Below, piece after piece: positions 29,928 through 46,745 of a stretch of 47,025 bases of DNA. The DNA is taken from NCBI GenBank assembly GCA_015068965.1, contig SVJN01000002.1, forward strand, positions 1-47,025, written 5' to 3'. The notes under the pieces are model-generated. The model worked only from the letters and a program-made list of their open reading frames with translations, ran no database searches and had not been told where the DNA came from. Made by a program: the position numbers and the translations under genes. Origin of the DNA: Oscillospiraceae bacterium. GTDB taxonomy: Bacteria > Bacillota > Clostridia > UBA1381. Every line of letters begins with the position of its first letter. The first letter of the stretch is position 1.

Positions 29928-30004
29928 CGGGATGTAGCGCAGTTTGGTAGCGCATCTGGTTTGGGACCAGAGGGCCGCAGGTTCAAATCCTGTCATCCCG
30001 ACCA
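29928..30004 (+). tRNA. tRNA-Pro (anticodon TGG)
   Basis: Cloverleaf CGGGATG...CATCCCG-ACCA; loop TTTGGGA; encoded CCA. Confidence 0.97.
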
Positions 30005-30015
30005 GATAAGGAAAT

Positions 30016-30091
30016 GGGAGTTTAGCTCAGCTGGGAGAGCGTCTGCCTTACAAGCAGGATGTCACAGGTTCGAGCCCTGTAACTCCCACCA
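30016..30091 (+). tRNA. tRNA-Val (anticodon TAC)
   Basis: GGGAGTT...AACTCCC-ACCA; anticodon loop CTTACAA. Confidence 0.97.
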
Positions 30092-30122
30092 CTTTCTTTT
30101 ACACCTACGATAGCCACAATTT

Positions 30123-30198
30123 GCTGGTGTAGCTCAATTGGTAGAGCAGCTGATTTGTAATCAGCAGGTCGCGGGTTCGAGTCCCATCACCAGCTCCA
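30123..30198 (+). tRNA. tRNA-Thr (anticodon TGT)
   Basis: GCTGGTG...CACCAGC-TCCA; anticodon loop TTTGTAA. Confidence 0.97.
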
Positions 30199-30203
30199 TA
30201 TAT

Positions 30204-30288
30204 GGAAGAGTTCCCGAGTGGCCAAAGGGGGCAGACTGTAAATCTGTTGCGTCTCGCTTCGATGGTTCGAATCCATCCTCTTCCACCA
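30204..30288 (+). tRNA. tRNA-Tyr (anticodon GTA)
   Basis: GGAAGAG...CTCTTCC-ACCA with long variable arm; loop CTGTAAA. Confidence 0.97.
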
Positions 30289-30289
30289 G

Positions 30290-30320
30290 AAAAAAGCACT
30301 TCTTTGGAAGTGCTTTTTTT
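30290..30320 (+). terminator. tRNA cluster terminator
   Basis: AAAAAAGCACTTC TTT GGAAGTGCTTTTTTT. Confidence 0.85.
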
Positions 30321-30321
30321 A

Positions 30322-30495
30322 ATGAAATACGCCTTTCGGCGTGTGAAATATTGCTACGCAATGTGAAATAGCCTTGCTGTGAAATATTTGCTTCGCAAAT
30401 ATTAAAGGCGTATTTTATTTCACAGAAAGCATAAGCCTTCTATTTCACAATTTCAACAGAAATTATTTCACATCAAGCGTTGCTTGATATTTCAT
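30322..30495. repeat. Palindromic hairpin array with four [AG]TGAAATA followed by four TATTTCA[CT]
   Basis: [AG]TGAAATA at 30322, 30343, 30363, 30379; TATTTCA[CT] at 30416, 30441, 30464, 30488; small hairpins ATTGCTACGCAAT, AATATTTGCTTCGCAAATATT, ATCAAGCGTTGCTTGAT between them. Confidence 0.8.
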
Positions 30496-45964: not shown

Positions 45965-45993
45965 TTGAATAATCCGTTGGTACATGTTATAAT
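45965..45993 (+). promoter_or_regulatory. Predicted sigma-A promoter of the structured RNA/SLOG locus
   Basis: TTGAAT - 17 bp - TATAAT; predicted start near 46000, the 5' edge of a 19-bp stem. Confidence 0.75.
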
Positions 45994-45995
45994 AT

Positions 45996-46175
45996 AGTCA
46001 CCACAATTTATTACTTTAATTAAATATGCCAGATTATACCTATTCTTATTATGTATAACAATGAGTACAAGGTGTACGCTATGTAAAAAGCGTATGCTTA
46101 TTCCGTTATCCTTGTACTCTTGTGCATATGGTAATAAGTTGTGGTGACTTTTCGGAATAGCCTCTGCGTTTTTTG
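45996..46175 (+). ncRNA. Candidate structured leader RNA/sRNA with possible pseudoknot
   Basis: Stem AGTCACCACAATTTATTAC (45996-46014)/GTAATAAGTTGTGGTGACT (46131-46149); GAGTACAAGG/CCTTGTACTC; TACGCT/AGCGTA; TTATAC/GTATAA; ATATGC/GCATAT; possible loop-3' flank pairing TTATTCCG (46098)/CGGAATAG (46153). Confidence 0.65.
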
Positions 46176-46209
46176 GTGCGTGGCTCTGCGAAGAGTCACG
46201 CACTTTTTT
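46176..46209 (+). terminator. Intrinsic terminator between structured RNA and SLOG gene
   Basis: GTGCGTGGCTC TGCGAA GAGTCACGCAC TTTTTT. Confidence 0.85.
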
Positions 46210-46226
46210 AATTTAGAGGTATGATG

Positions 46227-46745
46227 ATGACAGAAGAGAAAAAAACCTGCTGTTTCTTTGGGCATAGAAAAATAGCAGACACAGAGCAGTTACGGGAAAA
46301 GCTTTTTAAAATAATTGAGGGACTTATTATCCATAATCATGTAAATGTATTCCTTTTTGGTAGCCGTAGCGACTTCGACAAGTTGTGCCTTGCAGTTGTT
46401 GCAGAACTAAAAGATAAATACCCACATATACGGCGTGTTTATGTTCGTGCAGAATTTCAGTATATTGATGACGACTACAAGGCATACCTTTTACAAAGCT
46501 ATGACGATACATATTATCCGGAACAGATTTCAGGTTCAGGGCGTGCAGTTTATGTAGAACGTAATTACATTATGATTGACCGTTCTGATATCTGTGTTGT
46601 ATATTATGATGAAGATTATCAACCCCCAAAGCGAAAAAATAGCCGACGTGATATAATACCATATCAACCAAAAAGCGGAACAAAAATAGCATATGAATAT
46701 GCACAGAAAAAGAAAAAAGTAATCATACAAACTGCCGATTTTTGA
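46227..46745 (+). CDS. SLOG-superfamily (DUF1273/YpsA-like) protein
   Basis: KTCCFFGHRKIADTEQLREKL...VFLFGSRSDFDKLCLAVVAELK...IMIDRSDICVVYYDE...GTKIAYEYAQKKKKVII. RBS AGAGG spacing favours the third ATG (46227). Confidence 0.75.
   Translation: MTEEKKTCCFFGHRKIADTEQLREKLFKIIEGLIIHNHVNVFLFGSRSDFDKLCLAVVAELKDKYPHIRRVYVRAEFQYIDDDYKAYLLQSYDDTYYPEQISGSGRAVYVERNYIMIDRSDICVVYYDEDYQPPKRKNSRRDIIPYQPKSGTKIAYEYAQKKKKVIIQTADF

Follow-up and report, generated by a model that had tools for sequence, protein, structure and literature searches.

What is a densely folded RNA, equipped with its own promoter and its own terminator, doing immediately ahead of a gene for a SLOG-superfamily protein? The question is raised by the last part of the window (i.e. 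the whole stretch of 47 025 nucleotides analysed here, from contig SVJN01000002.1 of an Oscillospiraceae bacterium). An earlier note had described there a promoter, nested helices, a possible pseudoknot, a terminator and the SLOG gene, and all of them were found, by sequence and by folding, where it had placed them (Table 1). Judging from comparative sequence evidence, the element is likely to act in cis, as an attenuator of transcription, and to belong to a class absent from Rfam. The best reading is that of an unlisted orphan riboswitch class, the published ‘SLH motif’ having been compared by description only.

Organization of the locus

Table 1. Features of the RNA element and of the gene behind it, in window coordinates
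Feature	Position	Strand	Basis and remarks
Extended -10 promoter, TTGAAT-17-TATAAT	45965-45993	+	Sequence; predicted transcription start ~46000
P1, 5′ strand	45996-46014	+	Fold, covariation; with 46131-46149 forms 19 bp, one G-U
P1, 3′ strand	46131-46149	+	Fold, covariation; as for the 5′ strand
P2, 5′ strand (variable helix)	46024-46029	+	Fold; pairs with 46124-46129, 6 bp, perfect; differs among subtypes (alignments)
Variable side hairpin	46034-46058	+	Fold; 46034-46039/46053-46058, 6 bp, perfect; subtype-specific
P3, 5′ strand	46063-46072	+	Fold, covariation; pairs with 46110-46119, 10 bp, perfect
P3, 3′ strand	46110-46119	+	Fold, covariation; as for the 5′ strand
P4 apical hairpin, GTACGCT-ATGTAAAA-AGCGTAT	46074-46095	+	46074-46080/46089-46095, 6-7 bp; A-rich loop
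Pseudoknot, 5′ strand GCTTATTCCG	46096-46105	+	Helix counts, swap test; partner 46153-46161
Pseudoknot, 3′ strand CGGAATAGC	46153-46161	+	Covariation, swap test; doubles as left arm of antiterminator
Putative antiterminator	46153-46190	+	Pseudoknot 3′ strand to TGCG (46153-46168), U-tract loop (46169-46174), terminator 5′ arm (~46177-46190)
Intrinsic terminator	46175-46209	+	Sequence, fold, swap test; 13-bp stem, GCGA loop, U6
Ribosome binding site, GAGG	46216-46219	+	Sequence
SLOG-superfamily protein, YpsA-like	46227-46745	+	Pfam YpsA, predicted structure; upstream ATGs at 46221 and 46224

The long stem P1, with its single G-U pair, and the four perfect helices inside it were confirmed: the minimum free energy of a 222-nt stretch is -81.6 kcal/mol, compared to -44.3 ± 4.1 kcal/mol for dinucleotide shuffles (z = -9.2; none of 200 shuffles as good). 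P4 is the most conserved part of the RNA in our alignments. The core strands of the window pseudoknot, TTATTCCG (46098-46105) and CGGAATAG (46153-46160), form a strong helix of -10.5 kcal/mol. Between pseudoknot and terminator stands a second U tract (46169-46174), which is conserved and constitutes the loop of the antiterminator. This tract of five or six U residues follows GCG, and its length often equals that of the A-run in the P4 loop (a weak covariation).

Transcription had been predicted to start at the 5′ edge of the stem. The promoter itself stands (TTGAAT at 45965-45970, a 17-nt spacer and TATAAT at 45988-45993, with the TG of the extended -10, in the form TGt, at 45985-45986), but the predicted start shifts slightly: from the position of the -10 box, initiation is expected at about 46000, within P1, and the outer ~4 bp of this stem are therefore probably not transcribed. 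No leader-peptide ORF with a ribosome binding site was found in the RNA; a Tyr-rich frame of 10 codons (46026-46058), which reads MPDYTYSYYV, has no such site and is not shared by relatives, and leader-peptide attenuation was accordingly rejected. As to the SLOG gene, the spacing to the ribosome binding site and the homologues indicate that it probably starts at the ATG at 46227 (172 amino acids) and not at 46221.

A multi-copy RNA family in Clostridia

When the DNA upstream of SLOG homologues was read, a homologous RNA was seen before about a dozen of them; by covariance model, the RNA also stands ahead of a paralogue from the same genome. A covariance model (R1), built from 12 SLOG-linked RNAs, matched 61 of 296 related genomes, with up to 8 copies per genome; its lower-scoring matches were checked through features outside the model. 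A second model (R2), built from all 94 fetched members, matched 54 of 392 genomes of the class at an E-value of 1e-5, and these genomes belong to a dozen taxonomic families or more, the class label ‘Clostridia’ resting on named contigs that bear relatives of the SLOG protein. None of about 290 genomes sampled from other classes of the phylum was matched by R2 at an E-value of 1e-4. This sample, which leaves Synergistota outside, comprises 63 genomes with LpxC, presumably diderm Firmicutes such as Negativicutes. A phage or plasmid origin was considered and set aside, the RNA giving no match among phages, among plasmids or, with a single 24-nt pattern as query, among viral contigs.

The second U tract and the terminator are present in nearly all members. 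In 82 of 94, the start of the model is preceded by an extended -10 box at a distance of exactly 4 nt; at a shifted control site such a box was seen in 3 of 92. Tandem copies on the same strand occur at loci L018, L027, L053, L068, L086, L094 and L125, and at the first three of these each copy was seen to have its own promoter. Some tandem copies precede one gene (L018:1013-1488 and L053:1501-1928; also L086, L094 and L125), which in L086 and L094 looks like a secreted BspA-like protein. In L027 (2011-2650, minus strand) an RNA followed by a truncated SLOG start forms a tandem duplicate ahead of an intact RNA and SLOG unit. Other neighbours are tRNA genes or a tmRNA close upstream of RNA copies (L080:26-318, L095:1554-1637 and L101:1487-1701) and, at L014:1343-1422, a c-di-GMP-I riboswitch a few hundred bases away on the opposite strand.

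A promoter at fixed spacing to P1, a terminator of its own, paired ends and the presence of multiple copies in a genome, some of them in tandem and each with a promoter, are what one would expect of a stand-alone small RNA of ~210 nt acting in trans, like the raiA-motif/ModT RNA, whose neighbouring genes would then be incidental. Competing helices, gene position and the recurrence of gene families downstream speak against this.

Covariation and mutually exclusive helices

In the alignment of the 94 members, P1, P3 and P4 guided the fit, whereas the pseudoknot had no part in it. Over 41 pairs, the pseudoknot included, 90.6% of the cells are paired as compared to 72.0% after shuffling, and 37 of the pairs display changes on both sides. 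The covariation score is 0.508, against 0.182 ± 0.006 (sd) for shuffled alignments and 0.07-0.08 for slid structures. P1 pairs are kept at 96%, every one of them with both-sided changes; P3 is paired at 93%, with such changes in 10 of its 10 pairs, and P4 at 97.7%.

An alignment-free swap test was carried out on 41 non-redundant members, in which duplex energies of each member’s own strands were compared to those obtained when strands were exchanged between members. The resulting z-scores are -11.2 for P1, -10.1 for P4, -10.5 for the pseudoknot and -12.7 for the terminator, and two control pairings were null (+1.0 and +1.7). Kinship among members can inflate both swap and covariation tests; the null controls argue against kinship as the whole explanation. 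The pseudoknot, put forward as a possibility at first, is thus real, and the covariation of helices and pseudoknot, which the earlier note had named as a check on its proposal, is strong, so the proposal was not refuted.

The 3′ strand of the pseudoknot can also pair with the terminator 5′ arm, which would give the antiterminator (z = -6.6; 0 of 2000 permutations). Uninterrupted helices of 5 bp or more can be formed for the pseudoknot in 92 of the 94 members and for the antiterminator in 90; ATTAAAGCTGCGT paired with GCGCGGCTTTAAT in L128 is an example. Since their strands are shared in a chain, pseudoknot, antiterminator and terminator are mutually exclusive, and it is this exclusivity that leads us to propose a transcription attenuator. 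The suggestion that gene expression is controlled by the RNA through read-through of the terminator is supported. A stand-alone RNA would have no need for this covarying antiterminator.

Further pairings, in which P1 strands might exchange with the arms of the terminator, gave lower signals: z = -5.0 for the P1 5′ strand with the terminator 5′ arm and z = -2.5 for the P1 3′ strand with the terminator 3′ arm. A third pairing, of the P4 loop or 3′ strand (AAAAAGCG) with the conserved GCGTTTTTT, was rejected, because its z-score of -3.0 is weak and an extension of the antiterminator explains the GCG part equally well.

Genes behind the RNA

In 56 of 90 members, the terminator is followed within 60 nt by a start codon that has its ribosome binding site, whereas a gene start within this distance was seen in 2 of 52 cases in the divergent direction and in 2 of 90 when a control position 300 nt further on was taken. 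The start codons are concentrated 13-60 nt past the terminator. Among 80 downstream proteins, the most common were BspA-type leucine-rich repeat proteins (LRR_5; 13), SLH proteins (10), YpsA-type SLOG proteins (10, a count inflated by our SLOG-linked seeds) and Cu_amine_oxidN1 proteins (6), followed by DUF4177 (3), MazE/AbrB-like proteins (2) and others found singly. Many of them have N-termini that, judged by eye, look secreted. Identical kinds of gene recur behind the RNA in unrelated genomes. SLOG genes of other lineages also stand behind members that were found without seed bias (L057, YpsA at 93 bits; L059, YAcAr, below the cut-off), and the gene behind the RNA in L071 probably codes for another SLOG protein of this kind.

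Start codons clustered so close to the terminator and the recurrence of the same gene families behind it are not what would be expected of an RNA with incidental neighbours; together with the antiterminator, they make a trans-acting, stand-alone RNA quite unlikely in our view. Nor is the idea of a SLOG-specific system supported, as the same RNA precedes many genes unrelated to each other and is missing from many SLOG homologues.

The SLOG protein and its relatives

The window protein matches Pfam YpsA at 28.4 bits, slightly above the cut-off of 27.7. Its AlphaFold model (pLDDT 88) has Bacillus subtilis YpsA (2NX2) as best PDB match (E = 5.7e-6), and as modelled the protein has a SLOG fold, nearest to YpsA, in spite of a sequence identity of 14%. 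We know of no RNA of this sort for ypsA. Searches of the SLOG profile against PDB sequences and of the window protein against a defence database gave no match. The same genome encodes two close paralogues, and many relatives have homologues over the full length of the protein.

When presence of the RNA was plotted on a SLOG tree comprising 35 homologues, four changes were needed, at least two of them forced by well-supported branches. These changes, together with the homologues that are without the RNA, imply that gene and RNA are separable. Such RNA-less homologues have an apparent divergent helix-turn-helix regulator (L002:1096-1430, L012, L015, L017, L019, L021 and L022), and inverted repeats lie upstream of some of these genes, e.g. 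GATATATCG in L002. From the sequences, control of the SLOG gene seems to be achieved in different ways in different relatives. Overproduction of B. subtilis YpsA blocks cell division (PMC6459960); if the analogy holds, tight control of the SLOG gene would make sense.

This block of cell division by overproduced YpsA (PMC6459960) and the ToxIN-like order of promoter, structured RNA, terminator and one gene might evoke a type III toxin-antitoxin or a similar RNA-guarded toxin. The earlier note had doubted this, and rightly so: the protein has the SLOG fold, with YpsA as best match, and is not a ToxN/AbiQ-type endoribonuclease, it has no counterpart in the defence database, and the RNA precedes many diverse genes. 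An antitoxin RNA made of tandem repeats was rejected as well, the window having a single folded RNA and the tandem modules of relatives being separate promoter-terminator units. We regard a toxin-antitoxin function as hardly conceivable.

An attenuator could also be read by an RNA-binding protein instead of a small molecule, either an antiterminator protein or the gene product itself. Binding of nucleotides or of nucleic acids is within the reach of SLOG folds (PMC6459960), and the RNA has no established ligand. However, autoregulation by a SLOG protein cannot account for the copies located before BspA, SLH or DUF4177 genes, and a folded domain so large and conserved looks more like an aptamer than like a simple binding site for a protein. 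Reading by a protein is thus rather unlikely.

Comparison with known RNAs

No Rfam family matches the element, so that the known Rfam family which, according to the earlier note, would have refuted its proposal did not turn up: with the 4227 families of Rfam 15 at their gathering scores, no match was obtained at the element in the window or at about 50 RNA-bearing loci, and in a permissive scan of the element region all matches were far below the family cut-offs. The sole matches in the whole window, far from the element, are tRNAs and a Gut-1 RNA. They lie at 29928-30390, where a cluster of four tRNAs is followed by the Gut-1 RNA (RF01706, 64.5 bits).

Pseudoknot-bearing riboswitches that terminate transcription include the fluoride, ZTP and preQ1 classes. 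Our element shares with such riboswitches a folded domain, a pseudoknot strand that competes with an antiterminator and a terminator just before the ribosome binding site, and differs from them by its long P1, a start fixed at the base of P1 and the lack of an Rfam match. The raiA-motif RNA, or ModT, has its own promoter, terminator and pseudoknot. As far as its description goes (PMC11706538), it is likewise a structured RNA of Clostridia, but its sequence is different (no Rfam hit), and the tight link to diverse downstream start codons and the covarying antiterminator are seen here.

In several RNA-discovery papers, term searches (the candidate lists of PMC8040213 lying outside them) found no description of a similar gene context except that of the ‘SLH motif’ (Stav et al. 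2019, PMC6429828). By this description, the SLH motif is also found in Clostridia, upstream of SLH-domain genes, and was also proposed to be a riboswitch, so that our element could be the same candidate, far more widespread than reported. The same source gives 80 examples, with SLH-domain genes downstream in 60% of cases and with occurrences in Synergistaceae and Negativicutes. Here, in contrast, SLH proteins are a minority partner (10 of 80), SLOG, BspA-LRR and other genes being also common, and R2 matched no genome of the sampled other classes. On gene context and taxonomic range, to which this comparison was confined, we consider identity with the SLH motif unlikely.

Discussion

At the level of sequence comparison, the helices, the pseudoknot, the exclusivity of antiterminator and terminator, the anchoring of the promoter and the proximity to genes can be regarded as established. 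A covarying folded leader, exclusive antiterminator and terminator, and a 5′ leader position are general features of terminator-controlled riboswitches. We may therefore outline how the proposed attenuator would work. RNA polymerase would start at the base of P1; P1, P3 and P4 would fold first, after which the single strand 3′ of P4 would pair with the strand following P1 to give the pseudoknot. If the pseudoknot holds, the terminator would form, a short RNA of ~210 nt would be released and the gene would be off. If it fails, the 3′ strand would sequester the terminator arm and the downstream gene would be transcribed. The targets would be the YpsA-like SLOG gene in the window and, elsewhere, surface proteins and a few regulators. 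Some signal probably controls the genes behind the RNA, for cell-surface and SLOG proteins. We infer that a small molecule stabilizes one of the two states, as in a riboswitch, and that pseudoknot formation is the off direction; any identity given to the signal would be equally conjectural.

Three observations do not sit well with an attenuator. P1 is long and stable, while in many riboswitches it is short and switchable; yet the switch would lie in the pseudoknot. A fixed transcription start is unusual among riboswitches and would suit a stand-alone RNA too. Finally, the antiterminator of the window, interrupted by bulges, is weaker than in most members.

What could the signal be? For surface genes, c-di-GMP is the natural guess. 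As a universal ligand it is disfavoured, because 8 of 42 RNA-bearing genomes have no detectable GGDEF match; 6 of these 8 are at least 90% complete, and they include G110 and G358, with 4-6 copies of the RNA. One speculation, to which we give a low probability, is that the class senses a signal of nucleotide type which SLOG proteins either produce or use up, and thereby links this signal to the surface proteome of Clostridia of the gut; the sensor may then include the 5′ end at P1.

We thus have a well-supported class of multi-copy regulatory RNAs without an Rfam entry. Like former orphan riboswitches, many of which have unrelated genes downstream and which have repeatedly revealed new signalling molecules (PMC7266159), it may lead to a signal of its own: such a signal is suggested by the regulon, in which adhesin-like surface proteins and SLH proteins are found along with several SLOG lineages. 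The covariance model and the switch between pseudoknot and antiterminator open the RNA to direct ligand screening, and the RNA offers a way to approach the stimuli that act on SLOG genes.
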